A stretch of 64,000 nt of DNA from Myxococcota bacterium (GCA_028277885.1 JANQFK010000027.1:1-64000), one strand, 5' to 3'. Positions 8,284-33,292 are shown, numbered from the stretch's first letter. Notes: generated by a model from the letters alone, not told the origin. Numbers and translations: made by a program.

Positions 8284-10470
8284 TCAGCTCGGGTAGACGT
8301 CCCGCGCGTAGTCGTCGAGCATGCGGGTCGCGCAGAAGCGCGGCCCGATGCTGCGCAGGGACTCCTTGATCCGGCGCACCCAGCCGCGCGGGATCCCTCC
8401 CGCGTCGCGCTCGTAGAACAGGGTGCCGACCTCGCCCTCCAGCAGGTCGAAGACGCGCGCCGCGTCCCGGGCGTCCCGGGCCGCCTCGTCCGGGGCGGGG
8501 TCCGCCGCCACCGCCCAGCCGTTGTCGCCGTTCCAGGCCTCGGCCCACCAGCCGTCGAGCACGCTCAGCTGGAGCCCGCCGTTGAAGGCCGACTTCATGC
8601 CGCTGGTCCCGCTCGCCTCGAGGGGCGGGCGCGGCAGGTTCAGCCAGACGTCGCAGCCCGACACGAGCCGGGACGCGGTGACCGCGTCGTAGTCCTCGAG
8701 GAAGGCGACGCGGCCCCCCACCGTGGGCTCGCGCTTCAGGCCGAAGAGCCGCTGGAGCACCCCCTTGGCCTCCTCGTCCCGGGGATGGGCCTTGCCGGCG
8801 ATCACGATCTGGATCGGGCGCTCGCCGCGCAGCAGGCCCAGCGCGCGCCGGGCGTCGCTCGCCAGCAGGTGGAGCCGCTTGTAGGTGGCCAGGCGGCGCG
8901 CGAACCCCACGGTGAGGACGTCGGGGTCGAAGTTGCGCGCGGCCTCCTCGACGTAGGCCATGGGCTCGCCGCGGCGCAGGCGGTCCTCGACGGTGCGCTC
9001 GCGCACGAACTCCACGAGCGCCCTGCGCAGCGCGCCGCGGGTGGCCCACAGCTCCTCGTCGGGGATGCCGACGACCGGCTCCCAGGTGGCGGGGTCCGCG
9101 GCGCGGCGCTCGAAGCCCTCGCCCAGGTGGCGGGCGAGGAGCCTGCGCATGGGCGGGGCCATCCAGCCGGGCAGGTGCGCGCCGTTGGTCACGTGACGGA
9201 TGGGCACCTCGTCCACGGGCTGGTCGGGCCACAGGCCGCGCCACATCTCCCGCGCCACGCCGCCGTGGATGCGGCTCACGCCGTTGCTGGCCCGGCCGTT
9301 GCGCAGGGCGAGGACGGTCAGGCGGAAGGGCTCGTGGGCGTCGTCCGGGTGGATGCGCCCCATGCCGGCGAGCTCCTCGGGCGTGAGGCCGAGCTCCTCG
9401 GGAAGGTGGCCGAGCACGTTGTGGAGCTCGGCGGCGGTGTAGCCCTCGTTCCCGGCGGCCACGGGGGTGTGGGTGGTGAAGACGATCTTCTCGCGCACCG
9501 TCTTGGCAGCCGCATCCACCGAGATCCCCGCCTTCACGCCCTCGCGGAGCAGCTCCAGGGAGGCGAGGGCGGCGTGGCCCTCGTTCAGGTGCACGACCGA
9601 CGGCTCGATCCCCATGGCGGCCAGCGCGCGCATGCCGCCGATGCCGAGGGCCGCGTACTGGGCCAGCCGGACCTCGGAGTCCGAGTCGTAGAGCCGCGTC
9701 GTGATCCAGCGGTCGATGATCCGATTCTCGGGGCGGTCCGCATCGAGCAGGTAGAGCGACGCGCGGCCGAGCTCGGCGCGCCAGACCTGGAGGCGCACCT
9801 CCCGGTCGCGGATCCGGACCGGGACCGTGAGCTCCTCGCCCGCGCCGTTGGTGACCAGCGCGAGGGGGCGCAGCTCGGGATGGCGCTCGATCCAGTACTC
9901 GTGCTGCCGGCCCGACGGATCGAGGCGCTGGCGGAAGTAGCCCTCGCGGTAGTAGAGGCCGAGCCCCACCATCGGGAAGGCGCGGTCCGCGGCCTCGCGC
10001 AGCAGGTCGCCGGCCAGCAGCCCGAGCCCGCCGGCGTAGATCGGCAGGGAGCAGTGCGCGCCGAACTCGGCGCACAGGAAGGCGACGGGCCGGCTCGCCG
10101 AGGGCCCGGCTCCCGGCGCCTCGAGGGGCTCCGCGCGACGCGCGGCGAGACGCGACTCGAGGGCGACGAAGCGCTGGAGCAGGTCGCGGTCCCGGGCGAC
10201 GGCCTTCAGCCGCGAGATCGGCGTCTCGAGGAGCAGGCGGATCGGGTTGTGGATGACGCGCTCCCAGCGCAGGGGATCCACGCTGCGGAAGAGCTCCGCG
10301 CCGCCGGGCTCCCACGACCACGAGAGGTCGAAGGCGAGGCGCGCCAGGGGGGCGAGCTCGTCGGGCAGGCGCGCGGCCAGCCGCTCCGCCGCGCGGGCGG
10401 TGTCGCGCTCCCCCGGAGGGCGTGCGCCGCTGCCGGCGCCCGTGTCCCCGCCGCGGCTCGCATCCGACAT
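8284..10470 (-). CDS. glgP: Alpha-glucan (glycogen) phosphorylase, long form with N-terminal DUF3417-like region
   Basis: LSWSWEPGGAELFRSVDP N-terminus, VVHLNEGHAALASLELLREG, FTTHTPVAAGNEGY, EASGTSGMKSAFNGGLQLSVLDGWW; ATG 10470 preceded by GGAGG-type SD (ORF opens to 10527). Confidence 0.9.
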   Translation of the reverse strand: MSDASRGGDTGAGSGARPPGERDTARAAERLAARLPDELAPLARLAFDLSWSWEPGGAELFRSVDPLRWERVIHNPIRLLLETPISRLKAVARDRDLLQRFVALESRLAARRAEPLEAPGAGPSASRPVAFLCAEFGAHCSLPIYAGGLGLLAGDLLREAADRAFPMVGLGLYYREGYFRQRLDPSGRQHEYWIERHPELRPLALVTNGAGEELTVPVRIRDREVRLQVWRAELGRASLYLLDADRPENRIIDRWITTRLYDSDSEVRLAQYAALGIGGMRALAAMGIEPSVVHLNEGHAALASLELLREGVKAGISVDAAAKTVREKIVFTTHTPVAAGNEGYTAAELHNVLGHLPEELGLTPEELAGMGRIHPDDAHEPFRLTVLALRNGRASNGVSRIHGGVAREMWRGLWPDQPVDEVPIRHVTNGAHLPGWMAPPMRRLLARHLGEGFERRAADPATWEPVVGIPDEELWATRGALRRALVEFVRERTVEDRLRRGEPMAYVEEAARNFDPDVLTVGFARRLATYKRLHLLASDARRALGLLRGERPIQIVIAGKAHPRDEEAKGVLQRLFGLKREPTVGGRVAFLEDYDAVTASRLVSGCDVWLNLPRPPLEASGTSGMKSAFNGGLQLSVLDGWWAEAWNGDNGWAVAADPAPDEAARDARDAARVFDLLEGEVGTLFYERDAGGIPRGWVRRIKESLRSIGPRFCATRMLDDYARDVYPS

Positions 10471-10584
10471 CGTCCCCCCTCCACACCCGCGGGCCTTCCC
10501 GTCCGCCGGGTCTTCCGGTCGCGCCACTGGATGCTACCACCCCGATGGCCGCGGAGTGAGCGCGAGCGAGTCCGGTGGGAGGCC

Positions 10585-16117: not shown

Positions 16118-18133
16118 GGGGGGGCTCCATGGCGCCAGCGGCGCTGCGCAGTCTCGTCGGAGTTTTTCGGAGGTCACCCGGCCGCGGGCCACCGAGTGGG
16201 TCCAATTCTTTAGCAAGCGGTATGCCATACACGACAGGCGGTCACGCCGCTTCGGGCACGACCGGAAGTGCCGGTACGCGCAGCCTACTCGGGCGGGTCG
16301 CGGGCCTCGGTGGAGATCGCGTGAAGGCACGGGAGCAGCGGGGCGAAGTCCCCTGGCGCCCCACTTCCCGTTGGTCGATATTCCGGGCGTCTCGTCCCCC
16401 ATCGAGAATGCGAACGGATTCCCACACGTCCTCCGGCCGAGGAGCCGCGTGCCGACGCCCACGATCGCCTACCTCTCGATGGAGATCGCGCTGGACTCCG
16501 CGCTGCCGACCTACTCGGGCGGCCTCGGCGTGCTCGCCGGCGACACGGTGCGCTCGGCCGCCGACCTGGGCCTCCCCATGGCGGGCGTGACGCTCCTGCA
16601 CCGTCGGGGGTACTTCCGGCAGCGCATCGACGCGGAGGGCCACCAGAGCGAGGAGCCCGCCGAGTGGAACGTCGCCGACCACCTGACCGCGCTCGAAGCC
16701 CGGGTGAGCGTCGAGATCGAGGGCCGTCCGGTCGCGGTCCGCGCCTGGGAGTACCGGGTGCGGGGCTTCGGTGGGGCGGAGGTCCCCATCTTCCTCCTCG
16801 ACACCGACCTTCCCGAGAACGGACCCGAGGACCGCGGGCTCACCCACCACCTCTACGGCGGGGACGACCGCTACCGGCTCTGCCAGGAGGCGATCCTCGG
16901 GATCGGCGGGGTGCGGATGCTGCGCGCGCTGGGCCACGAGGACGTAGGCCGCTTCCACCTGAACGAGGGACACGCCGCCCTCGCCGTGGTGGCCCTCCTC
17001 GAGGAGTGCCTCGGTCGGCGCACCCCGCGCGCCGCGGCCGTCGAGGCCGCGGTGGAAGAGCTGCGCAGCCACGTCGTCTTCACCACCCACACCCCGGTAC
17101 CGGCGGGCCACGACAAGTTCTCCCACGAGCTCGCCGAGCACGTGCTGGGCGCGCGCCGCCTCGAGCTTCTGGCGAGCCTCGACGGGGGCCCGCTCCTCAA
17201 CATGACCGAGCTGGCCCTTCGCGCCTCGCACTTCGTGAACGGCGTGGCGATGCGCCACGGCGAGGTCTCGCGCAGCATGTTCCCCGAGTACCCGATCCGC
17301 TCGATCACCAACGGCGTCCACGTGGCAACTTGGACGTCGCCCTCGATCCGGGTGCTGCTCGACCGCCACGTGCGGGACTGGCGCCGCGACTCCCTCTCGC
17401 TCCGCTACGCGGTGGGGATCCCTCTGCGCGAGATCGGCTGGGCGCACCGGCGCTCCAAGCAGGCGCTCCTCGACCGGGTGAACCGGGAGTGCGGAGCCGG
17501 CTTCGACCCCGAGGCCTTCACCCTCGGCTTCGCGCGGCGGGCCACGGCCTACAAGCGCCCGACGCTGCTGCTGCGCGATCCGGAGCGCCTCAGCGCGATC
17601 GCGCGGGAGCAGGGACCGATCCAGGTCGTGTTCGCCGGCAAGGCCCACCCCCGGGACCACGAGGGCAAGGAGATGATCCGCTGGATCCACGAGGCCCGCG
17701 CCGCACTGGGCGCCGGGGTCTCCCTCGCCTACCTGCCGGACTACGACATGGCCCTGGGCCGGCTGCTGTGCGCGGGCTGCGACGCCTGGCTCAACACGCC
17801 CATGCCCGGCCTCGAGGCCTCGGGGACGAGCGGCATGAAGGCGGCGCTGAACGGCGTGCCCAGCCTGAGCGTCCTCGACGGCTGGTGGATCGAGGGCTGC
17901 GTCGAGGGCGTCACGGGCTGGGCGATCGGCGACGACGACTACCGCGAGCGGCTGGCCCCCTCGGCCCTCGACGCGCTCCACGCCGACGCCCTCTACGCCA
18001 AGCTGGAGAGCGCCGTGCTGCCGCGCTTCTACCGCGAGCCGGACCGCTATCTCGAGATGCGGCGCTCCGCCATCGCGCTGAACGCGTCGTTCTTCAACAC
18101 CCAGCGCATGGTGCTCCAGTACCTCTACGACGC

Positions 18134-20083
<1,950 letters not shown>

Positions 20084-20320: not shown

Positions 20321-21331
20321 ATGAGCGCGGATCCGGGTCGGAGAGGGCTCACCCGCCGCAACGTGCTGCGCCTGCTCGCCGTGGGTGGCGCGGCGGGCCT
20401 CGCCTGGACGGCCGGCGTCTCGGCCCGCGCCCGCCGCGTGGTCCGCTCCCGGGTGCTGATGGGCACCTGGGTCCAGCTCACCCTGGTGGACCGGGATCGC
20501 GAGGCCGCCGAGGCCGCCGCGGAGGCGACCCTCACCCGAATGGCGGAGCTCGAGCGAGTCCTGAGCCGCCACCGCGCCGACAGCGAGCTCTCCCGGCTGC
20601 AGCGGCTGGGCCGGATCGAGCACGCCGACCCGGCGCTCCTCGACGTGCTGCGACTCGCGGAGCGCATCTCGCGACTCGGCGACGGCGCCTTCGACGTCAC
20701 CGTGCAGCCGGTGCTCGACCTGTACCGCGGCCACCCGGGCCGCGCGCCGGACCCGGCGGCCCTCGAGCGCGCCGTGGCCCGGGTGGACCACCGGGCCGTG
20801 CGCATCGAGGCCGACGCCGTCTCCCTCGCCCGGCCCGACGTGCGGCTCACCCTGGACGGCATCGGCAAGGGCTGGGTGGTGGACCGCGGCATCGACGTGC
20901 TGCGCGAGCGGGGCTTCGGTGACGTGTTCGTGGACGCGGGGGGCGACTGCGTGGCGGCCGGCGGCCGCGGCGCGGGGCGGCCCTGGCGCGTCGGCATCCG
21001 CCGGCCGCGGCCGGGCCTCGCCCTGCAGGCGCGCTTCGAGGCGCGGGACGTCGCCGTCGCCACCTCGGGCGACTACATGCAGCCCTTCAGCCGGGACTAC
21101 GCCCAGCACCACATCCTCGACCCGCGCACGGGCCGCTCGTCGCCGGAGCTCGCCAGCGCGACGGTGTCGGCTCCGGACGCCGCCAGCGCCGACGCCCTCG
21201 CCACCCTGGTGATGGTGCTCGGCGCGCGCCGCGGCCGCGCACTCCTCGAGGACCTGCCGGGGTGCGAGGGCTACCTCGTCGCGAAGGACCTGGCCGTGAC
21301 CCGGACCTCGGGCTTCGGGGTGACGGCATGA
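20321..21331 (+). CDS. apbE: FAD:protein FMN transferase (ApbE family)
   Basis: SRVLMGTWVQLTLVD, LERVLSRHRADSELSRLQ, VRLTLDGIGKGWVVDRGIDVLRERGFGDVFVDAGGDC, HHILDPRTGRSSPELASATV; overlaps rnfB start (ATGA). Confidence 0.9.
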   Translation: MSADPGRRGLTRRNVLRLLAVGGAAGLAWTAGVSARARRVVRSRVLMGTWVQLTLVDRDREAAEAAAEATLTRMAELERVLSRHRADSELSRLQRLGRIEHADPALLDVLRLAERISRLGDGAFDVTVQPVLDLYRGHPGRAPDPAALERAVARVDHRAVRIEADAVSLARPDVRLTLDGIGKGWVVDRGIDVLRERGFGDVFVDAGGDCVAAGGRGAGRPWRVGIRRPRPGLALQARFEARDVAVATSGDYMQPFSRDYAQHHILDPRTGRSSPELASATVSAPDAASADALATLVMVLGARRGRALLEDLPGCEGYLVAKDLAVTRTSGFGVTA

Positions 21332-22194
21332 CGCTGGTCCTGACCGCGGTCGCCGCCCTGGGAGGCCTCACCCTGGTGCTGGCCTCGCTGCTCGTGCTCG
21401 CCAACCGCAAGCTCCACGTCGAGGAGGACCCGCGCATCGACGCCGTGGAGGAGATGCTGCCCCACGCCAACTGCGGCGCCTGCGGCTTCCCGGGCTGCCG
21501 CCCCTTCGCCGAGGCCCTCGTCGCCGGCGACGCGCTGCCGGGCAAGTGCACGGTGAGCGCCGAGGCGGGCCGCGCGCGCATCGCCGCGTACCTGGGCGTG
21601 GACGTGGGCGCCGAGGAGAAGCGCGTGGCGCGGCTCGCCTGCGCGGGCGGCAGCAACGTGGCGCGCCACCGCGCCCGCTACGACGGCCTCTCCACCTGCG
21701 CGGCCGCCGCCCAGGTGGCCGGCGGCGGCAAGAGCTGCTTCTGGGGCTGCCTCGGCCTGGCCGACTGCGCCGTGGCCTGCGACTTCGACGCGATCCACAT
21801 GGATCCCCACGACCTGCCGGTGGTGAACGAGGAGAAGTGCACCGCCTGCGGCGACTGCGTGGACGCCTGCCCCAAGGACCTGTTCTCGCTGCACCCCGTG
21901 AGCCGCCGCCTGTGGGTGGCCTGCCGCTCCCTCGAGGCGGGCGACGGCGTCCTCGAGGACTGCGAGGTGGCGTGCACCGCCTGCGGGCGCTGCGCCATGG
22001 ACGCTCCGGGGCTGATCGAGATGCGCGACAACCTGCCCGTGGTGGACTACGCGCGCCCCCACGGCACCCGCGTGCCGATCGAGCGCTGCCCCACGGGCGC
22101 CATCGTCTGGCTCGACCCGCTGCACGGCGCCGTGAAGGGCGCGGCGGCGAAGAAGATCATCCGCAAGGGCGCGCTTCGCGACGCTCCCACCTGA
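21328..22194 (+). CDS. rnfB: Rnf electron transport complex subunit B
   Basis: N-terminal TM helix, LPHANCGACGFPGCRPFAEALVAGDALPGKC, CFWGCLGLADCAVACDFDAI, CTACGDCVDACPKDLFSL. Confidence 0.93.
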   Translation: MTLVLTAVAALGGLTLVLASLLVLANRKLHVEEDPRIDAVEEMLPHANCGACGFPGCRPFAEALVAGDALPGKCTVSAEAGRARIAAYLGVDVGAEEKRVARLACAGGSNVARHRARYDGLSTCAAAAQVAGGGKSCFWGCLGLADCAVACDFDAIHMDPHDLPVVNEEKCTACGDCVDACPKDLFSLHPVSRRLWVACRSLEAGDGVLEDCEVACTACGRCAMDAPGLIEMRDNLPVVDYARPHGTRVPIERCPTGAIVWLDPLHGAVKGAAAKKIIRKGALRDAPT

Positions 22195-22215
22195 TCCGGA
22201 CCCAGGAGGTTTCCC

Positions 22216-25200
22216 ATGTCCCTGTTGGCGCACGTTCGCAGGAAGTCGCCCGAGCCCGAGGCCCGCTACCCCGGCGTGCGGGCCGCCCTCGACGGCAACA
22301 CCGCCGCGATCCTGTGCGAGCGCGAGTCGAGCGACGCGGCCGGCGCCTACCCGATCACGCCCTCGACCCAGATGGGCGAGTACTGGGCCGAGGCGGCCGC
22401 AGCGGGCCACCTCAACGTCTCCGGCCGGCCGCTCATCTTCGTCGAGCCCGAGGGCGAGCACGCGGCCGCGGCGGTCACCGCCGGCATGGCGATGACGGGG
22501 CTGCGCGCCGCGAACTTCTCGTCGGGCCAGGGCATCGCCTACATGCACGAGTCGCTCTACGCCGCCGTCGGCAAGCGACTCACCTACGTGCTCAACATCG
22601 GCGCCCGGGCCATGACCAAGGCCACCCTGAACGTCCACGCCGGACACGACGACTACCACTGCATCGACGACACGGGCTTCTTCCAGCTCTTCGCCCGGGA
22701 CGCCCAGTCCGTGGCGGACCTCAACATCATCGCCCACCGCATCGCCGAGCTGGCGCTCAACCCGGGCGCCGTGGCCCAGGACGGCTTCCTCACCACCCAC
22801 CTGATCGAGTCCATGAGGATCCCGGAGCGCGAGCTGATCGCCGAGTACCTCGGCCGGCCCGACGACGTGATCGAGTGTCCGACACCCGCCCAGCGCATCC
22901 TCTACGGCGAGACCCGGCGGCGCATCCCGCTGCTCTGGGACGTCGACAACCCCGTGATGGCGGGCCTGGTCCAGAACCAGGACGCCTACATGCAGAGCGT
23001 GGCCGCCCAGCGGCCGTTCTTCTTCGACCACATCCAGGAGCTCACCGAGCGCGCCTTCGAGGAGTACGCCGCGCTCACCGGCCGGCGCTACGCCCGCGTG
23101 CTGAGCTACCGGGCCGAGGACGCCGACTACCTGATCCTCGGCCAGGGCAGCCTGATCCCCAGCGCCGAGGCGGTGGCGGACCACCTGCGCGAGACGCGCG
23201 GCGTGAAGGTCGGCGTCGTCGACCTGGTGATGTTCCGCCCGTTCCCGGCGGACCTCGTGGGCGAGCTGCTGAAGGGCAAGAAGGGCGTGGCCGTGCTCGA
23301 GCGCCTCGACCAGCCCCTGGCCGTGGACCTGCCCCTGGTGCGCGAGATCCGCGCGACCCTCTCCAAGTGCCTCGAGAACGGGCGCGACCCCGACCGCCCC
23401 CGCCATCCCGGGCTCGCCGCCTACCGCGACGTCGCCGACGCGCCGCCCCTCTACTCGGGCTCCTTCGGCATGGGGAGCCGGGACCTCCAGCCCGAGGGCA
23501 TCGTCGCCGCCGTGGAGAACATGCTGCCCGACGGAGGGCGCCGCCCGCTCTTCTACCTCTCCATCGACTTCCTGCGCGACGAGCCGGTGACGCCCAAGCA
23601 GGAGATCCACCAGCAGACCATCGAGGACGCCTACCCCCACGTCCGGGAGCTGGCGATCCGCGGCTCCGAGAACCCCAACCTGATGCCCGAGCACAGCATC
23701 ACGCTGCGCTTCCACTCGGTGGGCGGCTGGGGCGCCATCACCACCGGCAAGAACCTGGCGATGACGCTGTTCGACCTGCTGGGCTGGCACATCAAGGCCA
23801 ACCCGAAGTACGGCTCGGAGAAGAAGGGGCAGCCCACCACCTACTACCTGTCCGCCGCGCCGGATCCGATCCGGGTGAACTGCGAGTACTTCTACGTGGA
23901 CGTGGTGCTCTCCCCGGACCCCAACGTGTTCCACCACACCAACGCCCTGGCGGGCCTCAAGGAGGGCGGCGTCTTCGTGATCCAGAGCGAGCGCAGCTCG
24001 CCCGAGGCGGTCTGGGCCGACGTGCCGGCGATCTTCCAGAAGATCCTGATCGACAAGAAGATCCGGCTCTACGCCGTGGACGCCTTCCGCATCGCCCGGG
24101 AGGAGGCCACGGACCCGGACCTGCAGCTGCGCATGCAGGGCATCGCGTTCCAGGGGGCCTTCTTCGCCACCTCGAGCGTGATGGCCGAGGCGGGGCTCGA
24201 CGAGGGGCGCCTGCTCGCCGCCATCGAGAGCCAGCTCCAGCACAAGTTCGGCGCCAAGGGGGCGCGGGTGGTGGCCGACAACCTGCGCGTGGTGAAGCGC
24301 GGCTTCGACGAGGTCCGCGAGATCCCCCACGGCCCGATCACCGAGGCGCGTCCGGGGGAGCGTCCGGCGAGCGCCGGGCCCGCCGTGCCGGTGATGGTCG
24401 AGGCCCTGCCCTCGAGCCAGGCGCCGATCACCGACGTGCATCGCTTCTGGGAGCAGACCGGCTCCTTCTACGTGCGCGGCATGGGGAACGACAACCTCAC
24501 CGACCCGTTCATCGGGCTCGGCGTGATGCCGGCCTCGACGGCGCTGTTCCGGGACATGACCCAGATCCGCTTCCAGCACCCGGAGTGGATCCCCGAGAAC
24601 TGCACCGCCTGCGGCAAGTGCTACACGGTGTGTCCCGACACCGCGATCCCGGGCCTCGTGAACGAGGTCGGCCAGGTGTTCGACACCGTGGTGAAGCGCC
24701 TGCGCAAGCACGGCCGGCCCACGGAGCAGCTCCCCAAGGCGGTGCGCGTGCTGGAGCGCCACCTGCGCGCGAGCCTGCAGCAGGCCAGGGAGACCGACTC
24801 CGTGGAGGGCATGCTCGAGGAGGCCCTGGGCCGCACCCTCGAGGGCGGCGACTTCACGGGGGACGCCAAGGAGGAGCTGCGCAAGGAGCTCGACGGCTTC
24901 CGCGAGGAGCTGGGCGAGTTCCGCCTGGCGCTCTCCCGCCCCTACTTCACGGTGCCCGAGAAGCAGGCGCCGGGCAGCGGCGGGCTGCTCTCCATCACGG
25001 TGAACCCCTACACCTGCAAGGGCTGCATGGAGTGCGTCGAGGTCTGCGACGACGACGCGCTGCGCGCCGTCACCCAGACCGACGAGTCGGTGCAGCGGCT
25101 GCGCGACGAGTGGGACTTCTGGCTCGACCTGCCGACCACGCCGCAGAAGTACGTCCGCGTGGACGACCTCGAGGAGGGCATCGGGGCCCTCGAGACCATC

Positions 25201-27183
25201 CTGCTCGACAAGGGCAACTACCTGCCCTTCACGAGCGGGGACGGCGCCTGCCTGGGCTGCTCCGAGAAGACCGCCGTCCACCTGTTCGTCGCCACCGTCG
25301 AGGCGCTGATGCAGCCCCGCATCGCGAAGCACCTCGACCACCTGAACGACCTGATCGACGGCCTGGAGAAACACATCCAGCTGAAGCTCGTCGAGGAGAT
25401 CCAGGTCGGCGACCCCGAGGCCATGGCGAAGATCGTGGGCGACCTCGGCCAGGGCGACGAGGACGTCACCCTCTCGGACATCGCGGGCCGCATGGAGGCC
25501 CTGCGCGGCGGCGAGCCCATCGACCCCGACTGGCTGCGCCGCGTGACGAAGCTCCTCGCCACGCTGAAGGAGCTGCGCTGGAAGTACCAGCAGGGCACCA
25601 CGGGCCGCGGCCGCTCGAAGCTCGGCATGCTGAACGCCACGGGCTGCACCTCGGTCTGGGGCAGCACCTACCCCTACAACCCCTACCCGTTCCCCTGGGC
25701 GAACCACCTGTTCCAGGACTCCCCGTCCCTCGCCATGGGGGTGTTCGAGGGCCACATGGCCCGGATGGCCGAGGGCTTCCGGGCCATCCGCGCGGCGGAG
25801 CTCGAGCTCGCGGGCGGCTACCGGCCCGCGGAGCACGACGAGGCCCTCACCTACTTCGACTGGCGCCAGTTCAGCGACGAGGAGTGGGAGCTGTGCCCGC
25901 CGGTGGTGGCCGTGGGGGGCGACGGCGCCATGTACGACATCGGCTTCCAGAACCTCTCGCGCCTGATGGCGTCGGGCAAGCCCGTGAAGGTGCTGGTGGT
26001 GGACACCCAGGTCTACTCCAACACCGGCGGCCAGGCCTGCACCTCGGGCTTCACCGGGCAGATCTCCGACATGGCCCAGTTCGGCAAGGCGATCCAGGGC
26101 AAGCAGGAGCCGCGCAAGGAGATCGGGCTCATCGGCATGGCGCACCGCACCACCTACGTGCTCCAGAGCACCATCGCCCACCCGAACCACATGATCGAAG
26201 GCTTCATCCGCGGCCTGAAGGCCCGGCGCCCGGCGCTCTTCAACCTGTACAGCTCGTGCCAGCCCGAGCACGGGATCGGCGACGACATGAGCCACCACCA
26301 GGCGAAGCTCGCCGTGGAGTCCCGTGCCTACCCGCTGTTCCGTTACGACCCCGACGGCGGCGAGACCCCGGAGGAGTGCTTCGACCTCGAGGGCAACCCC
26401 GATGCCTCCGCGGACTGGCCCCGCTACAAGCTGAAGTACCGCCAGGGCGGGCGCGAGCTCGAGATGGAGCTGCCGCTCACCTTCGGCGACTTCGCGATCA
26501 GCGAGGTGCGCTTCCGCAAGCACTTCCGCAAGGCGCCGCCGGACACCTGGAACGACGCCATGGTGCCCATGGCGGAGTTCCTCGAGCTCGAGCCCGAGGA
26601 CCGGGAGGGGAAGTTCCCGTACCTGTGGACCGTGGACCGCGACCAGCAGCTCTCGCGCCTCATCGCCGACGAGGCGATGGTCGAGTCCTGCGAGGACCGG
26701 CGGGGCTTCTGGCGCATGCTGCGCTCGCTCGCGGGCGAAGGCGAGGAGCCGCCCTCGGCGGCGGACCTCGAGGACCGCGTGCGCCAGGACGTGGTGGCGC
26801 GCCTGGCGGCGGGGCTGATGAAGCTCGCCGGGGGCGAGGGGGACGCCGGCGCGGTGCTCTCGGACCTGGCCGCGGTGCCCGGCGCCGCGGGCCCTGCGGG
26901 CGAAGCCGCGGGGGCCCCGACTCCCGCCGGCGACTTCATGGCCCCCTGGATCGACACCCCGGATTGCACCTCCTGCGACGAGTGCATCCAGCTGAACCCG
27001 CGCATCTTCGCCTACGACGACCAGGGCAAGGCCTTCATCCAGGACGCCGAGGGCGGGCCCTATCGCGACCTCGTGAAGGCGGCCGAGCGCTGCACCGCGC
27101 GCGTCATCCACCCGGGCCTGCCCCGGGACCGCAGCGCGAAGGACGTCGACAAGTGGATCGAGCGCGGCAGCAAGTACAACTGA
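22216..27183 (+). CDS. Large (1655 aa) pyruvate/2-oxoacid:ferredoxin oxidoreductase-like protein with extra C-terminal ferredoxin-like segment
   Basis: YPITPSTQMGEYWAE, CTACGKCYTVCPDTAIPG, CKGCMECVEVCDDDAL, GDGACLGCSEKTAVHLF, GGDGAMYDIGFQNLSR, YSNTGGQACTSGFTGQISDM (TPP domain), C-terminal CTSCDECIQLNPRIFAYDDQGKAFI; strong SD AGGAGG. Confidence 0.88.
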   Translation: MSLLAHVRRKSPEPEARYPGVRAALDGNTAAILCERESSDAAGAYPITPSTQMGEYWAEAAAAGHLNVSGRPLIFVEPEGEHAAAAVTAGMAMTGLRAANFSSGQGIAYMHESLYAAVGKRLTYVLNIGARAMTKATLNVHAGHDDYHCIDDTGFFQLFARDAQSVADLNIIAHRIAELALNPGAVAQDGFLTTHLIESMRIPERELIAEYLGRPDDVIECPTPAQRILYGETRRRIPLLWDVDNPVMAGLVQNQDAYMQSVAAQRPFFFDHIQELTERAFEEYAALTGRRYARVLSYRAEDADYLILGQGSLIPSAEAVADHLRETRGVKVGVVDLVMFRPFPADLVGELLKGKKGVAVLERLDQPLAVDLPLVREIRATLSKCLENGRDPDRPRHPGLAAYRDVADAPPLYSGSFGMGSRDLQPEGIVAAVENMLPDGGRRPLFYLSIDFLRDEPVTPKQEIHQQTIEDAYPHVRELAIRGSENPNLMPEHSITLRFHSVGGWGAITTGKNLAMTLFDLLGWHIKANPKYGSEKKGQPTTYYLSAAPDPIRVNCEYFYVDVVLSPDPNVFHHTNALAGLKEGGVFVIQSERSSPEAVWADVPAIFQKILIDKKIRLYAVDAFRIAREEATDPDLQLRMQGIAFQGAFFATSSVMAEAGLDEGRLLAAIESQLQHKFGAKGARVVADNLRVVKRGFDEVREIPHGPITEARPGERPASAGPAVPVMVEALPSSQAPITDVHRFWEQTGSFYVRGMGNDNLTDPFIGLGVMPASTALFRDMTQIRFQHPEWIPENCTACGKCYTVCPDTAIPGLVNEVGQVFDTVVKRLRKHGRPTEQLPKAVRVLERHLRASLQQARETDSVEGMLEEALGRTLEGGDFTGDAKEELRKELDGFREELGEFRLALSRPYFTVPEKQAPGSGGLLSITVNPYTCKGCMECVEVCDDDALRAVTQTDESVQRLRDEWDFWLDLPTTPQKYVRVDDLEEGIGALETILLDKGNYLPFTSGDGACLGCSEKTAVHLFVATVEALMQPRIAKHLDHLNDLIDGLEKHIQLKLVEEIQVGDPEAMAKIVGDLGQGDEDVTLSDIAGRMEALRGGEPIDPDWLRRVTKLLATLKELRWKYQQGTTGRGRSKLGMLNATGCTSVWGSTYPYNPYPFPWANHLFQDSPSLAMGVFEGHMARMAEGFRAIRAAELELAGGYRPAEHDEALTYFDWRQFSDEEWELCPPVVAVGGDGAMYDIGFQNLSRLMASGKPVKVLVVDTQVYSNTGGQACTSGFTGQISDMAQFGKAIQGKQEPRKEIGLIGMAHRTTYVLQSTIAHPNHMIEGFIRGLKARRPALFNLYSSCQPEHGIGDDMSHHQAKLAVESRAYPLFRYDPDGGETPEECFDLEGNPDASADWPRYKLKYRQGGRELEMELPLTFGDFAISEVRFRKHFRKAPPDTWNDAMVPMAEFLELEPEDREGKFPYLWTVDRDQQLSRLIADEAMVESCEDRRGFWRMLRSLAGEGEEPPSAADLEDRVRQDVVARLAAGLMKLAGGEGDAGAVLSDLAAVPGAAGPAGEAAGAPTPAGDFMAPWIDTPDCTSCDECIQLNPRIFAYDDQGKAFIQDAEGGPYRDLVKAAERCTARVIHPGLPRDRSAKDVDKWIERGSKYN

Positions 27184-27214
27184 GGCCGGCAGCGGTACCG
27201 GGAGCGGACCGGCG

Positions 27215-28564
27215 ATGAGGGCGGGCGGGCTGCTCGGGCTCAAGACCTTTCGCCACGGCGTGCACCCGCCGGAGGCGAAGGACGAGACCCGCGACCTCCC
27301 GATCCGGCGCTTCCCCTTCGCGCCGCTGCTGGTGGTGCCCCTCGTGCAGCACCTGGGCCGGCCGTCCCTGCCCGTGGTGCGCGAGGGCGAGGAGGTGCTG
27401 CGCGGCCAGCCCATCGCGCGGCCCGACGGCTTCGTGTCCGTCGCGATGCACGCGCCCGCCACGGGCGTGGTGCGCCGCATCGCGCTCACGCCCAGCATCT
27501 CGGGCCGCATGGTGCCCGGCGTCTACCTCGAGCCCCGGCCCGGGTCGACCCAGGAGGTGATGGACGGGACGCCGTGCCCGCCGGACGCGAGCCCCGAGGA
27601 GATCGTCACCGCCATCCAGGAGGCCGGCGTCGTCGGCCTGGGCGGTGCCGCCTTCCCCACCCACGTGAAGCTCGCGATCCCCGAGGACCGGCGCTGCGAC
27701 ACGCTGCTGCTGAACGGCGCCGAGTGCGAGCCCTACCTCACCACGGACCACCGCGTGATGCTCGAGCAGCGCGACGACGTCTTCACGGGCATCCGCTACC
27801 TGCTGCGCGTCACCGGCGCCGAGCGCGCCATCGTGGCGGTGGAGGCCAACAAGCGCGACGCCGCGGAGCACCTCGAGAAGGGCCTGCCCGCGGACCTCCC
27901 GGTCTCCGTCGAGGTGCTGCGGGTCAAGTACCCCCAGGGCGCCGAGAAGATGCTGATCAGCGCGCTGCTCGGGCGCGAGGTGCCCTCGGGCGGCCTGCCC
28001 CTCGACGCCGGCGCGCTGTGCGTCAACGTCGCCACGGCGGCGGAGATCGGCCGCCTGCTGCCCCACGGCCGGGGCATCCAGGAGCGCGTCATCACGGTGA
28101 CCGGCCCGGCGGTCCGCGATAGGGGCAACTACCGCATCCCCATCGGCACCCCGCTGCGCTTCCTGCTCGACCACGTGGGCACCGCGGACGACGTGGGCCG
28201 GGTGTTCCTGGGCGGGCCGATGATGGGGGCCGCCGCGCCCTCCCTCGACGTCCCGATCACCAAGGGAACCTCGGGGGTGGTGGCGTTCACGGACGCCGAG
28301 GCCGAGCGCACCCATCGCCACGTCTACCCCTGCATCCGCTGCGGCTACTGCGTGGACGCCTGTCCGATGTTCCTGAACCCCCAGCAGCTCGGTCAGCTCG
28401 CCGCCGGCCAGGAGTACGGCGCCATGGCGGACGAGCACCACCTGATGGACTGCTTCGAGTGCGGCTCCTGCTCCTTCGTCTGCCCCTCCCACATCCCGCT
28501 GGTGCAGCGCTTCCGCGTCGCCAAGGCGGCGGTCCGCAAGGCGGCCGCGAAGGCGCCGGCATGA
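27215..28564 (+). CDS. rnfC: Rnf electron transport complex subunit C
   Basis: GLLGLKTFRHGVHPPEAKDET, VGLGGAAFPTHVKL, LLNGAECEPYLTTDHRVMLE, CIRCGYCVDACPMFLNPQQL, CFECGSCSFVCPSHIPLVQRFRVAK. Confidence 0.95.
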   Translation: MRAGGLLGLKTFRHGVHPPEAKDETRDLPIRRFPFAPLLVVPLVQHLGRPSLPVVREGEEVLRGQPIARPDGFVSVAMHAPATGVVRRIALTPSISGRMVPGVYLEPRPGSTQEVMDGTPCPPDASPEEIVTAIQEAGVVGLGGAAFPTHVKLAIPEDRRCDTLLLNGAECEPYLTTDHRVMLEQRDDVFTGIRYLLRVTGAERAIVAVEANKRDAAEHLEKGLPADLPVSVEVLRVKYPQGAEKMLISALLGREVPSGGLPLDAGALCVNVATAAEIGRLLPHGRGIQERVITVTGPAVRDRGNYRIPIGTPLRFLLDHVGTADDVGRVFLGGPMMGAAAPSLDVPITKGTSGVVAFTDAEAERTHRHVYPCIRCGYCVDACPMFLNPQQLGQLAAGQEYGAMADEHHLMDCFECGSCSFVCPSHIPLVQRFRVAKAAVRKAAAKAPA

Positions 28565-29586
28565 GCCACGCACCCACGGGCACCCTCGAGATCCGCACCT
28601 CCCCCCACGTGCTCTCGGGCTACTCCGTCGACACCATCATGTTCAACGTGGTGCTCGCGCTGCTGCCCGCCAGCGCCTTCGCGGTCTGGGCCTTCGGCTG
28701 GACCGCGCTCCTCACCCTCGCCACCGCGGTGGCGGCGTGCCTCGCCACGGAGCGCGTCGCGGGTCGGCTCTCGGGCGGCGGCTCGACCCTGGCCGACGGC
28801 TCCGCCGCCATCGCGGGCCTGCTCTACGGCCTCACCCTCCCGCCCGGGCTGCCGCTCTGGATGGTGGCGGTGGGCGGCGTGTTCGGCCTCGGGGTCGGCA
28901 AGGCGCTCTTCGGCGGCCTCGGCATGAACCCCTTCAACCCGGCCCTGGTGGGGCGCGCCTTCGTCCAGGCCGCCTTCCCGGTGCCGATGACGACCTGGGT
29001 GCCCGCCTTCGCGCCCGAGCGCTTCGCCGCGCTGCCGCCCTCGACCCTGACGCCGCCCTTCACGGCGCCGGTCTACGACGCCGTCACCGGCGCCACCCCG
29101 CTCGCGCTCTGGAAGTTCGAGCGCGTCACCGTCTCCGCGAGCGACGCCGCCATGGGGTTCATCGCGGGCTCCACGGGCGAGACCTGCGCGGTCCTGATCC
29201 TGCTGGGCGGCGCCTACCTGGTGGCGCGCAACATGATGAGCTGGCGCATCCCGGTGGCGATCTTCGCCAGCGTGGCGCTGCTGAGCGGCGCCCTCCACGC
29301 CCTCGGTCCCGACGTCTGCCCGCCGCCGCTCTTCATGCTGTTCTCCGGCGGGCTCGCCCTGGGAGCGGTCTTCATGGCCACCGACATGGTGAGCTCGCCC
29401 ATGACCGGGCGCGCCTGCGTCGCCTACGGCGTCGTGATCGGCGTCCTCACGGTGGTGATCCGCGTCTGGGGCGGGCTGCCCGAGGGCGTCATGTACGCGA
29501 TCCTGTTCGGCAACGCCCTCACCCCGCACCTCGACCGCTGGCTCCAGCCGCGGGTCTACGGCACGCGGGCGGAGGCGGGCTCGTGA
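28561..29586 (+). CDS. rnfD: Rnf electron transport complex subunit D
   Basis: RTSPHVLSGYSVDTIMFNVVLALLPA; FGGLGMNPFNPALVGRAFVQAAFP; DAVTGATPL flavinylation motif; ATGA overlap with rnfC. Confidence 0.94.
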   Translation: MSHAPTGTLEIRTSPHVLSGYSVDTIMFNVVLALLPASAFAVWAFGWTALLTLATAVAACLATERVAGRLSGGGSTLADGSAAIAGLLYGLTLPPGLPLWMVAVGGVFGLGVGKALFGGLGMNPFNPALVGRAFVQAAFPVPMTTWVPAFAPERFAALPPSTLTPPFTAPVYDAVTGATPLALWKFERVTVSASDAAMGFIAGSTGETCAVLILLGGAYLVARNMMSWRIPVAIFASVALLSGALHALGPDVCPPPLFMLFSGGLALGAVFMATDMVSSPMTGRACVAYGVVIGVLTVVIRVWGGLPEGVMYAILFGNALTPHLDRWLQPRVYGTRAEAGS

Positions 29587-30263
29587 GCGCGGCGCCCCCG
29601 GGCGAGCAGCCGCGGGTCTGGCCGATGTACCGCGCCATGGTGGGGGTGGGCCTGATGTGCGGCCTGCTGATCGTGGGCGTCTTCCAGTGGACGGGGCCGC
29701 GCATCGCCCGCAACCGCGCCGAGGCCCTCGAGCGCGCCATCTTCCAGGTGCTGCCCGCGGCGCGCTCGAGCACCACGTTCCGCCTCGTCGACGGCGAGCG
29801 CTTCGAGCCCCGCGGCGAGGGCGACGCCGCCGACTCCCTCGTCCACGCGGGCTACGACGCCGAGGGCGAGCTGGTGGGCCTCGCCCTCGAGGGCCGGGGG
29901 ATGGGCTACCAGGACGTCATCCACGTGCTCTTCGGCTACGCCTTCGCCGACGAGACCGTGGTGGGGATCCGCGTGCTCGAGAGCCGCGAGACCCCGGGCC
30001 TGGGCGACCGCATCGAGACCGATCCCGGCTTCCTCGCGAACTTCGACGCGTTGGACGTGCGCCTCGACGAGAGCGGGAGCGCCCTCGCCCACGCCATCGA
30101 GCCGGTGAAGCCCGGCGAGAAGACCGAAGCCTGGCAGGTGGACGGCATCACCGGCGCCACCATCTCCTCGGTCGCCATCGCGAACATCCTCGACCAGAGC
30201 GCGGCGTTCTGGATCCCGCGGATCCGGGCCCGGCTCGACGACTTCCGGGGAGCGCAGCCGTGA
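29583..30263 (+). CDS. rnfG: Rnf electron transport complex subunit G (FMN-binding)
   Basis: Single N-terminal TM, VVGIRVLESRETPGLGDRIETD, VDGITGATISSVAIANI flavinylation motif; GTGA overlap with rnfD. Confidence 0.93.
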   Translation: MSAAPPGEQPRVWPMYRAMVGVGLMCGLLIVGVFQWTGPRIARNRAEALERAIFQVLPAARSSTTFRLVDGERFEPRGEGDAADSLVHAGYDAEGELVGLALEGRGMGYQDVIHVLFGYAFADETVVGIRVLESRETPGLGDRIETDPGFLANFDALDVRLDESGSALAHAIEPVKPGEKTEAWQVDGITGATISSVAIANILDQSAAFWIPRIRARLDDFRGAQP

Positions 30264-30922
30264 GCGACGAGAGCGTGCCGACACCGGGCACCGACGAGTT
30301 CGTGAAGGGCCTGTGGCGCGAGAACCCGGTCTTCGTGCAGGTGCTGGGGATGTGCCCCGCCCTGGCGGTCTCGAACACGGCCCGCAACGCCCTCGCCATG
30401 GGGCTCGCCACCCTGTTCGTCCTGGTGGGCTCCAACCTGGTCGTCTCCTCGCTGCGCCACTTCGTGCCGCGCCAGGTCCGCATCGCGACCTACATCCTCG
30501 TGATCGCCACCTTCGTCACCGTGGTCGACTACGCGATCCAGGCCATCAGCCTCGATCTCCACAAGGCCCTCGGCGCCTTCATCTCGCTGATCGTGGTGAA
30601 CTGCCTCATCCTGGGCCGCGCCGAGGCCTTCGCCTCGCGCAACCACGTCGGGACGGCGCTCCTCGACGCGCTCGGCATGGGGACGGGCTTCGTGCTGGCC
30701 CTCCTCTCCCTCGGTGCCGTGCGGGAGATCCTCGGCAGCGGCAGCCTGTTCGGCGTGCCGCTCTTCCACGAGGGCTTCCAGGGCTGGGTGGTGATGATCC
30801 TGCCGGCGGGCGGCTTCTTCACCCTGGCGGGCTGGCTGCTGCTGTTCAACTGGCTGCGCGAGCGCCGGGCGACCCGGCTCGCCGCGCTGGAGCCCGTCGG
30901 GGCCACGGGAGGCGGACGATGA
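30260..30922 (+). CDS. rnfE: Rnf electron transport complex subunit E
   Basis: EFVKGLWRENPVFVQVLGMCPALAVSNTARNALAMGLAT, polytopic; GTGA overlap with rnfG. Confidence 0.93.
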   Translation: MSDESVPTPGTDEFVKGLWRENPVFVQVLGMCPALAVSNTARNALAMGLATLFVLVGSNLVVSSLRHFVPRQVRIATYILVIATFVTVVDYAIQAISLDLHKALGAFISLIVVNCLILGRAEAFASRNHVGTALLDALGMGTGFVLALLSLGAVREILGSGSLFGVPLFHEGFQGWVVMILPAGGFFTLAGWLLLFNWLRERRATRLAALEPVGATGGGR

Positions 30923-31500
30923 GCGGCGAGCCGCTGTGGGCGATCTTCGTGAACGCGTCGCTCATCAACAACTTCGTGCTCGCCTACTTCCTGGGACTGT
31001 GCCCGTTCCTGGGCGTCTCGGGCAAGCTCGCCACGGCGAGCCGCATGGGCGGGGCGGTGACCTTCGTGATGCTCGTGAGCTCGGTGTGCGCCTTCGGGAT
31101 CCAGCGGGCCCTGGTGGCCATCGACGCCCCCTACCTGCGCCTCATCTCCTTCATCGCCGTGATCGCCTCCACGGTCCAGCTGGTGGAGATGTTCGTGAAG
31201 AAGGTGAGCCCGGAGCTGTTCCGCCAGCTCGGCATCTTCCTGCCCCTCATCACCACCAACTGCGCGATTCTCGGCCTGGCGCTGTTCCAGACCAACAAGG
31301 GCTACGACTTCGTCGAGTGCCTGGTCTACGCCCTGGGGGCCGGGGCGGGCTTCACCCTGGCCCTGGTGCTGATGGCGGGGCTGCGCGAGAAGCTCGAGCT
31401 GGCGAGCCTTCCCGACGTGGTGCGCGGCGCCGCGCTCTCGCTGGTGCTGGCCGGCATCCTCTCCATCACCTTCATGGGCTTCGCGGGCCTGGGGAGCTGA
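30919..31500 (+). CDS. rnfA: Rnf electron transport complex subunit A
   Basis: LWAIFVNASLINNFVLAYFLGLCPFLGVSGKL, FLPLITTNCAILGLALF; ATGA overlap with rnfE. Confidence 0.94.
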   Translation: MSGEPLWAIFVNASLINNFVLAYFLGLCPFLGVSGKLATASRMGGAVTFVMLVSSVCAFGIQRALVAIDAPYLRLISFIAVIASTVQLVEMFVKKVSPELFRQLGIFLPLITTNCAILGLALFQTNKGYDFVECLVYALGAGAGFTLALVLMAGLREKLELASLPDVVRGAALSLVLAGILSITFMGFAGLGS

Positions 31501-31504
31501 GCGC

Positions 31505-31705
31505 ATGGCCGGAACCCTCGTCGGCATGCTCCTCGTCGCCGCCCTCGCCGTGGGGTGGGTCGCGGTCCAGCGCGCCTGGGCCCGCGCCTTCCCCGACGCC
31601 TTCGACGATCCCGACGTGCTGGCCGGCCGCGCCGGCTGCCACGGCTGTGGCTGCACGACCCCCTGCCCGCGGCGAGCCCGCCGCGACCCGGAGGAGACAC
31701 CGTGA
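31505..31705 (+). CDS. NqrM-like small membrane protein with Cys cluster
   Basis: 66 aa: one N-terminal TM helix then AGCHGCGCTTPCPRR; CxCxxxC spacing resembles the CDCDNPC segment of Vibrio NqrM (DUF539). Confidence 0.6.
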   Translation: MAGTLVGMLLVAALAVGWVAVQRAWARAFPDAFDDPDVLAGRAGCHGCGCTTPCPRRARRDPEETP

Positions 31706-32577
31706 GCGAATCCATCCACCACCTCGCCGACTACGACGCCGGCACCCGCCACGAGGCGACCGTCGTCTCCAACACGCGCATCACGCCCGAGGCCTCGCCC
31801 GAGGAGGTGCGGGAGCTGGTGCTCGACGTGGACCGCAGCGAGCTGCCCTACGCGATCGGGCAGAGCATCGGGGTGCTCGCCCCGGGCGCGCCGGAGTTCG
31901 GCCAGGAGCACCACTTCCGGCTCTACAGCGTCGCCGACCTGCCCGAGCGCGGCGAGTCGGGCCAGCCGCGCATCAAGATCGCCGTGCGGCGCTGCAGCCA
32001 CATCGACGAGTACAGCGGCGAGGAGTTCCCCGGCATCGCCTCGAACTTCCTGTGCGACCTCCAGCCCGGCCAGGGCTTCGAGTTCACCGGGCCCTTCGGG
32101 CTCGCCTTCGAGGTGCCCGAGGAGCACGACGCGAACCTCATCCTGATCGGCAGCGGGACCGGCATCGCGCCCTTCCGCGCCTTCGTGAAGCATCTCTACC
32201 GCGACGTGCCGGACTGGAAGGGCCGGGTCTGGCTCTTCTACGGCGCCCGCAGCGGCCTCGAGCTGCTCTACATGAACGACGAGAAGGACGACTTCACCCA
32301 GTACTACGACGAGGAGACCTTCCGCGCCTTCCGGGCCCTCTCCTCCCGGCCGGGCTGGACCGACCGGATCGACTGGCACCAGGCCATCGAGGAGACCGGC
32401 GAGGAGCTGTGGGAGATGCTGGGCGAGGCGAAGACCTACGTCTACGTGGCGGGCCTCGAGAAGTCCATGGAGGAGCTCGACGCGGTCTTCACCAAGCTGG
32501 CCGGCTCGTCCCAGAAGTGGCTGCGCCGCAAGGCGGAGCTGCTGGCCGGGCGGCGCTGGGTGGAGCTGGTCTACTAG
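31702..32577 (+). CDS. Plant-type ferredoxin-NAD(P)+ reductase
   Basis: HHFRLYSVADLPERGE, GIASNFLCDLQPGQGFEFTGPFGLAFEVP, LILIGSGTGIAPFRAFVKHLY, GRVWLFYGARSGLELLYMNDE, TYVYVAGLEKSMEELDAVF; GTGA overlap with preceding ORF. Confidence 0.85.
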   Translation: MSESIHHLADYDAGTRHEATVVSNTRITPEASPEEVRELVLDVDRSELPYAIGQSIGVLAPGAPEFGQEHHFRLYSVADLPERGESGQPRIKIAVRRCSHIDEYSGEEFPGIASNFLCDLQPGQGFEFTGPFGLAFEVPEEHDANLILIGSGTGIAPFRAFVKHLYRDVPDWKGRVWLFYGARSGLELLYMNDEKDDFTQYYDEETFRAFRALSSRPGWTDRIDWHQAIEETGEELWEMLGEAKTYVYVAGLEKSMEELDAVFTKLAGSSQKWLRRKAELLAGRRWVELVY

Positions 32578-32647
32578 CGGCCGCCCTGGCGACTTGAACG
32601 GCCGGGGCGTCCAGGCAGGCTCCCCCCGCAACCGGAGGTCCCTGGCC

Positions 32648-33292
32648 GTGCTTCGTCGTCTCGCTCTCGCCACCGGCAGCGTGCTGCTCGCCGGCTGCTC
32701 GGTCTTCGGGGTCCGCTCGGGCTACGAGCAGGCCGCCTACGAGGTGGTCGACCGCGTCGACCCGAGGGTCGAGATCCGCCGCTACGGCCCCCGCCTCGTG
32801 GCCGAGACCAGCGTGGAGGCGGTGGACCGGCAGGCCGGGCAGAACGCCGCGTTCCGCATCCTCGCCGACTACATCTTCGGCGGGAACCGCGGGAGCCAGG
32901 AGGTGGCGATGACGGTTCCAGTGGAGGTGGAGCCGGCCGGGACCGAGATCGCCATGACGGCGCCGGTGGAGACCGAGGCGAGCGGCGACCGGCTGGTGAT
33001 GCGCTTCTTCCTCCCCGCCCGCTTCACCCGCGAGAACGCCCCGGAGCCGGTGGACCCGCGCGTGCGCATCGTCGAGCTCCCCGGCGAGACCGTCGCGGTG
33101 CTGGGCTTCTCGGGCCTGGGACGCGCCGGCTCGGTCGAGCGCCACGAGGGCCTGCTCCTCGAAGCCCTCGAGGGATCGCGCTGGAGCATCGAGGGCACGC
33201 CGCGGACCCTCTACTACGACCCGCCCTGGACGCTGCCCTTCCTGCGCCGCAACGAGGCCAGCGTGCGGGTCAGCCCCGCCCCGAGAGGATGA
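32648..33292 (+). CDS. SOUL-family heme-binding protein, putative lipoprotein
   Basis: YEVVDRVDPRVEIRRYGPRLVAET, MTVPVEVEPAGTEIAMTAPVE, lipobox-like LLAGC. Confidence 0.8.
   Translation: MLRRLALATGSVLLAGCSVFGVRSGYEQAAYEVVDRVDPRVEIRRYGPRLVAETSVEAVDRQAGQNAAFRILADYIFGGNRGSQEVAMTVPVEVEPAGTEIAMTAPVETEASGDRLVMRFFLPARFTRENAPEPVDPRVRIVELPGETVAVLGFSGLGRAGSVERHEGLLLEALEGSRWSIEGTPRTLYYDPPWTLPFLRRNEASVRVSPAPRG

Follow-up and report, generated by a model that had tools for sequence, protein, structure and literature searches.

The closest described relatives of the locus reported here are classical pyruvate:ferredoxin oxidoreductase (PFOR, or NifJ; Desulfovibrio africanus 1B0P and Moorella 6CIN), the Rnf complex (RnfBCDGEA), plant-type ferredoxin reductase (FNR; PetH) with BoxA, and the NqrM family. 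As an arrangement, the nearest precedent is the rnf2 operon of the Solemya velum symbiont, described in 2014, in which rnfB2 and rnfC2 are separated by PFOR genes and pyruvate was proposed as the Rnf electron donor (PMC4287430). That account, which we liken to ours by its description alone, is one sentence on one genome, and the sentence mentions neither FNR, an NqrM-like gene, a ferredoxin domain, the distribution of the arrangement nor a respiring context. We analysed a stretch of 64,000 nucleotides from a Myxococcota bacterium (GCA_028277885.1 JANQFK010000027.1:1-64000, hereafter the window), which is contig C9 of a 5.2 Mb metagenome-assembled genome (MAG) that is 90% complete. Its ten-gene operon (Table 1) encodes an unusually long PFOR, the ‘giant PFOR’, together with Rnf and FNR. 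On sequence grounds this enzyme belongs to a PFOR subfamily that occurs widely in respiring bacteria, is tightly linked there to Rnf and FNR genes, and has hardly been described. A preliminary description of the window did not recall this gene composition as a described unit; the rnfB-PFOR-rnfC trio has in fact been in print once, in the Solemya sentence. A literature search with most subscription papers outside its coverage, and therefore a weak negative, found no other account of the block, of a ferredoxin-fused PFOR or of its distribution.

The order and coordinates of the ten plus-strand genes and the six 4-bp overlaps given in the preliminary description proved exact, and Pfam and NCBIfam models agree with its naming of ApbE, RnfB, C, D, E and A, an FMN-binding RnfG, the PFOR domains and FNR. 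Six of the nine gene junctions are exact 4-bp ATGA/GTGA overlaps (ATGA at apbE/rnfB), and the other three are short gaps (rnfB-PFOR, +21 bp; PFOR-rnfC, +31 bp; rnfA-NqrM-like gene, +4 bp), the first of which holds a strong AGGAGG site ahead of PFOR. Codon third positions are 91–99% GC in each operon gene, a uniform style. Scanning the operon for intergenic terminators gave none, two weak matches inside PFOR being at the shuffled expectation, and a scan for sigma-70 promoters gave no match above chance. The identical order is found again at tens of loci in different phyla, so the gene arrangement is beyond chance.

Table 1. Genes of the operon, and the fused ferredoxin domain, in window coordinates
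Feature	Position	Strand	Description
apbE, FAD:protein FMN transferase, first gene	20321..21331	+	336 aa; PF02424 1.2e-69
rnfB, long polyferredoxin type	21328..22194	+	288 aa, 20 Cys; TIGR01944 above cut-off; PRK07118 236 bits
giant PFOR	22216..27183	+	1655 aa; POR_N, PFOR_II, POR, two 4Fe-4S motifs, TPP domain, C-terminal ferredoxin domain
PFOR C-terminal [4Fe-4S] ferredoxin domain	26929..27180	+	~residues 1572-1655; Cys 1584, 1587, 1590, 1626; Fer4_13
rnfC	27215..28564	+	449 aa; TIGR01945 489 bits
rnfD	28561..29586	+	341 aa; flavinylation-type site DAVTGATPL; TIGR01946 304 bits
rnfG	29583..30263	+	226 aa; flavinylation-type site ITGATISS; FMN_bind; TIGR01947 87.8 bits vs cut-off 102
rnfE	30260..30922	+	220 aa; TIGR01948 240 bits
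rnfA	30919..31500	+	193 aa; TIGR01943 237 bits
small one-helix CxxCxCxxxC protein, NqrM-like by architecture only	31505..31705	+	66 aa; no Pfam match
fnr, plant-type ferredoxin reductase, PetH/BoxA-like	31702..32577	+	291 aa; C-terminal Tyr; PetH/BoxA models

A search with the giant PFOR returned at least 575 genome contigs with a confirmed relative, from which 80 loci were fetched. Carriers span at least eight phyla, the names recorded being Myxococcota, Pseudomonadota, Bacteroidota, Planctomycetota, Verrucomicrobiota, Acidobacteriota, Gemmatimonadota, Calditrichota and candidate division KSB1; as MAGs predominate, an isolated taxonomic oddity may stem from faulty binning. Cultured carriers include Algoriphagus, Marivirga, Fulvivirga, Cecembia, Aquiflexum, Persicobacter, Methylomicrobium, Rubripirellula and Planctomycetes CA13, and some unannotated plasmid records also match. 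The preliminary description had suggested a search for PFOR homologues between rnfB and rnfC, with a tally of accompanying NqrM-like and FNR genes, and where the contig was long enough to count, the linkage is close to absolute: rnfC lies directly downstream of PFOR in 72 of 73 loci, rnfD, G, E and A lie within 8.5 kb of it in 61/62, fnr is linked in 60/62, and the small NqrM-like gene stands between rnfA and fnr in 47/62. An rnfB gene is found at either end of the block in 49 of 50 loci (30 upstream, 19 past fnr), giving two layouts, rnfB-PFOR-rnfCDGEA-(NqrM-like)-fnr and, in Bacteroidota, PFOR-rnfCDGEA-NqrM-like-fnr-rnfB. The one locus short of most of these genes (L034) is in a complete-chromosome MAG, in which the block ends inside or past rnfC and rnfB is missing; its sole other RnfD-type match is a fragment, and the partial block is either a remnant or an assembly error.

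The block also appears to be inherited as one. Across 60 loci, the PFOR distance matrix correlates with those of RnfB, C, D, G, E, A and FNR (Mantel r 0.74 to 0.88), with a maximum of 0.165 in 500 label permutations; shared species history adds to such a correlation, which therefore shows co-inheritance and not contact. Within Bacteroidota, the PFOR tree places Methylomicrobium together with L067 and L051, two other gammaproteobacterial loci, with starred support at the forks nearest to L067 and L068, and L067 and L068 share the Bacteroidota gene order. This pattern fits an apparent transfer of the whole block between phyla.

We also looked at the rnf operons of 61 near relatives, taking matches of ~970 bp as Rnf-type RnfD and reading those of ~1065 bp as NqrB. 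Every judgeable Rnf-type RnfD has a giant PFOR, or a pair of divergent PFOR-like genes, as its neighbour, the judgement leaving out G048 (whose contig starts inside rnfC) and the second RnfD contig of G052 (which starts beside the gene); rnf operons lacking PFOR, which the preliminary description had proposed to look for, were thus not found among the judgeable loci. Among the 91 genomes available for the class, 22 encode a giant PFOR; in 14 it is of the window type (at least 71% identity) and in 8 of a sister type about 53% identical. Sister-type operons (L141-L143, L150) keep rnfB-PFOR-rnfCDGEA and gave no fnr or NqrM-like match, although only one of them spans the full 8.5 kb. PFOR-Rnf is therefore the core, to which, judging from these gene contents, one branch probably added FNR and the small protein. 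ApbE adjoins the operon at only a handful of relative loci in few lineages and is therefore no core member. The hard-wired PFOR-Rnf-FNR module of the preliminary description thus holds in its near-universal linkage and co-inheritance, but FNR and the NqrM-like protein are limited to one branch, and ApbE to few lineages.

Three further observations concern these relatives. First, in a second Rnf type (L131 in G047, L132, L133, L135 and L137), a KorA-like gene and 1301-aa and 1430-aa PFOR-like proteins flanking rnfB precede rnfCDGEA; the two PFOR-like proteins score far under every known model. Second, at L139 and L140 (G056 and G032) the PFOR relative is split into 803-aa and 615-aa genes, with no adjoining rnf genes found. 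Lastly, a protein that by eye resembles a divergent aldehyde:ferredoxin oxidoreductase adjoins one sister-type operon (L142:15307-17031).

The giant PFOR carries POR_N, PFOR_II, POR, 2x4Fe-4S and TPP domains in order within one chain, as expected of the PFOR superfamily, yet it scores only 403 bits, in two separate stretches, against the model of classical homodimeric PFOR (TIGR02176; cut-off 911). In an alignment of 87 homologous sequences, T48 is conserved at 98.9%, and R131, D1236, N1246 and N1269 are kept at 99–100%. From the alignment and the known D. africanus structure, we take T48, R131 and N1269 to belong to the pyruvate/thiamine diphosphate (ThDP) site and D1236 and N1246 to the TPP motif. 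Sixteen cysteines are invariant (motifs 796-806 and 934-944; 1012/1015/1144/1348; 1584/1587/1590/1626), the first twelve presumably, on the same basis, ligating the three clusters of classical PFOR. The last four fall in the C-terminal ferredoxin domain, which is present in every aligned member. The giant and classical enzymes thus have the same core domains, the same ThDP site and the same set of three [4Fe-4S] clusters; in contrast, the giant PFOR is about 420–490 aa longer, has wider cluster-cysteine spacing (C806-C934, C1015-C1144) and carries the C-terminal ferredoxin fusion. Its sequence sets it apart as a distinct subfamily, far from the classical NifJ family.

An AlphaFold2 model of residues 745-1655 (mean pLDDT 78.8, pTM 0.81) retrieved PFOR structures first in Foldseek (E about 1e-14). 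Its C-terminal domain superposes on D. africanus ferredoxin I (1fxr) with a TM-score of 0.85 and a root-mean-square deviation of 0.8 Å over 58 columns, the E-value being only 0.075 because the domain is small; sequence search also matches D. africanus ferredoxin I (1dax, 8e-6). Two helical insertions, C806-C934 and C1015-C1144, make up part of the remaining extra length and, going by the model, could be docking or shielding surfaces.

How closely PFOR and Rnf are coupled admits several readings. They may share an operon only, exchanging electrons through a common ferredoxin pool; this looser form of the tight module that we prefer is compatible with it, and we hold it to be a possibility of the minor kind. 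The finding of rnfB at either block end sits comfortably with a shared pool, as does the fact that a PFOR-Rnf complex is something we infer, whereas the near-absolute linkage, the apparent whole-block transfer between phyla and the ferredoxin fusion carried by every aligned PFOR all argue for closer coupling. At the other extreme, and equally tentatively, the partners may form a physical, self-contained ‘pyruvate respirasome’, in which the ferredoxin-tethered PFOR would dock on RnfB/RnfC and feed the pump with no need of free ferredoxin, FNR serving as an integral valve for electrons.

All six Rnf subunits (A, B, C, D, E and G) are encoded together, making a complete complex; B, C, D, E and A exceed their subfamily cut-offs, and G falls below its own but has the FMN-binding domain and GAT site. 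In RnfB, 19 of 20 cysteines are invariant among 74 homologues and the remaining one is 99% conserved. The ATPL of the flavinylation-type site is nearly invariant among RnfD homologues, GAT is invariant in 72 RnfG homologues, and Cys32 and Cys115 of RnfE and Cys28 and Cys115 of RnfA are invariant. The complex thus shares its six subunits, flavinylation-type sites and RnfA/RnfE cysteines with Rnf generally, and differs in being genetically locked to PFOR and FNR and in often having a small extra cysteine protein.

That small protein consists of a single N-terminal hydrophobic helix followed by Cx2CxCx3C, and was called NqrM-like in the preliminary description. NqrM (PF04400) likewise has one N-terminal helix, then CxCxxxC, and a gene beside paralogous membrane subunits, a likeness seen by eye. 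However, the PF04400 profile matches none of 41 members (the window protein and 40 homologues; E up to 1), while as a control real NqrM genes were found elsewhere in two carrier genomes; an hhalign comparison with NqrM covers 15 columns only, over CxCx3C (probability 32%), and the first cysteine spacing is Cx2C in the small protein as against Cx7C in the real NqrM of the same Methylomicrobium genome. The name therefore marks a likeness only, and kinship with NqrM finds its sole backing in the 15-column match. Separately, in Rubripirellula obstinata (L156, G070:C68), ApbE and NqrM are apparently fused in one 446-aa reading frame past an nqrF-like end.

The FNR is closest to the PetH and BoxA models and, among structures, to plant and cyanobacterial FNR (1e-33 to 1e-44); the terminal Tyr shared with these families is present in 64/64 homologues, as expected of a plant-type FNR. 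Ser214 and Arg216 are kept in nearly all 64, whereas at the second position that binds the 2'-phosphate the Tyr of plants is replaced, and S-P-R-P stands where the plant type has S-R-E. The cofactor may therefore be NADP+ or NAD+.

The genomic setting is aerobic. COX1 (haem-copper oxidase) and E1_dh (E1-type 2-oxoacid dehydrogenase) are each present in all 14 carrier genomes tested, and the unit therefore belongs to respiring bacteria; since E1_dh also covers 2-oxoglutarate and branched-chain dehydrogenases, the match need not be pyruvate dehydrogenase itself in every carrier. In seven Bacteroidota loci the block is immediately followed by KorAB, a two-subunit 2-oxoacid:ferredoxin oxidoreductase, while in L027, L070, L080 and L100 its neighbours include genes for other subunits of such oxidoreductases. 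Carbohydrate genes are found nearby, namely glgB and two glgP genes in the window, and glgP, G6PD, 6PGD or pyruvate kinase in some gammaproteobacterial loci. Together, KorAB and the carbohydrate neighbours weakly indicate oxidative use. The preliminary description had not noted the ferredoxin fusion, how widely the block is distributed, its presence in respiring genomes with E1-type dehydrogenases or how often KorAB adjoins it.

We consider it probable, if well short of certain, from gene content and domain composition, that the block is transcribed and functions as a single unit, a module that would lead electrons from pyruvate by way of ferredoxin to Rnf and so conserve energy at low O2, while FNR would offer them another way out. 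The giant PFOR would oxidize pyruvate and CoA to acetyl-CoA and CO2, passing low-potential electrons through its three internal [4Fe-4S] clusters to its own C-terminal ferredoxin domain, which would deliver them to RnfB and on through the Rnf complex, where NAD+ would be reduced and Na+ or H+ exported. ApbE, operon-encoded here, would flavinylate RnfD and RnfG, and the small membrane protein may plausibly act in maturation, aiding insertion of the RnfA/RnfE iron-sulfur cluster. When the ion gradient is high, FNR would use the same reduced ferredoxin to form NAD(P)H. The most likely use would be the oxidation of pyruvate (and of 2-oxoglutarate, with neighbouring KorAB) by respiring bacteria when oxygen is scarce or their quinones are highly reduced, and the payoff would be an ion gradient that is forgone with pyruvate dehydrogenase.

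Several points weigh against this proposal. Carriers encode E1-type dehydrogenases, so that lack of an alternative does not account for their having PFOR; the carbohydrate genes at the flanks differ between loci and may be there by chance; and boxes for the regulator FNR are suggestive in a few Halieaceae-type loci only, with 9/10 matches at similar distance in three, 8/10 in a fourth and otherwise about the shuffled expectation. Furthermore, Rnf is reversible, and runs towards ferredoxin reduction in aerobic Azotobacter (review PMC12174285). Rnf could, then, use the respiratory ion gradient to drive NADH electrons uphill to the fused ferredoxin, with PFOR as a pyruvate synthase for acetate or fatty-acid assimilation. 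We judge this unlikely. The Azotobacter case and the oxidases in all carriers tested are in keeping with reversal, and true isocitrate lyase (ICL) is missing from most carriers and from 89/91 genomes of the class, which leaves room for a role in carboxylating acetyl-CoA; but ICL is missing class-wide with or without PFOR, so there is no association, and full-length ICL occurs in four carriers among the 14 tested, those four being Bacteroidota. In addition, the adjoining glycogen and sugar genes indicate catabolism, and FNR would drain ferredoxin. Two candidate markers were discarded: ICL rarity across the class gives a glyoxylate-shunt complement no discrimination, and ADP-forming acyl-CoA synthetase, present in 82/91 genomes, is uninformative about fermentation.

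A further alternative, which we regard as improbable, is that the unit supplies a pool of reduced ferredoxin and NADPH for ferredoxin-requiring biosynthesis such as nitrogenase or protochlorophyllide reductase. FNR does connect ferredoxin and NAD(P), and the window genome has a bacteriochlorophyll cluster that includes ferredoxin-dependent protochlorophyllide reductase genes. Nitrogenase-type proteins, however, occur in only 3/14 carriers and in none of the tested Bacteroidota carriers, and those of the window genome are bacteriochlorophyll enzymes, so that nitrogenase support was rejected as a general role. The cluster (L151, G000:C11:1-20000) holds BchH, BchB, BchN, BchG, BchY and BchZ (NCBIfam), and its contig agrees with the window (GC 72.5%, tetranucleotide r 0.99); the host may be a phototrophic Myxococcota.

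Outside the block, flanking genes showed no notable recurrence except KorAB, glgP and a lineage-specific 118-aa Bacteroidota protein; a conserved protein of 118–141 aa with no Pfam match lies directly upstream of giant PFOR in 20 Bacteroidota-type loci (for example L060:9602-9958). The window's two glycogen-phosphorylase-like genes and glgB lie upstream of the operon at 8287-10527 (-), 16131-18161 (+) and 18137-20083 (-). A SOUL heme-binding-like gene (32594-33292, +) starts 16 bp past fnr on the same strand; we rejected it as a further gene of the operon, since the genes that come next at the compared loci show no similarity to it.

For annotation, the consequence is that giant PFORs score far under the standard PFOR model. 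PFOR and Rnf are commonly regarded as enzymes of anaerobes; here they form one conserved block in genomes with haem-copper oxidases. Cultured carriers (Algoriphagus, Marivirga, Fulvivirga, Persicobacter, Methylomicrobium and Rubripirellula) make an extra ion gradient from pyruvate testable, as well as the tolerance of PFOR to oxygen and a direct hand-over of electrons from PFOR to Rnf. If true, the ‘pyruvate respirasome’ would be an ion-pumping route of pyruvate oxidation beside pyruvate dehydrogenase in oxygen-respiring bacteria.

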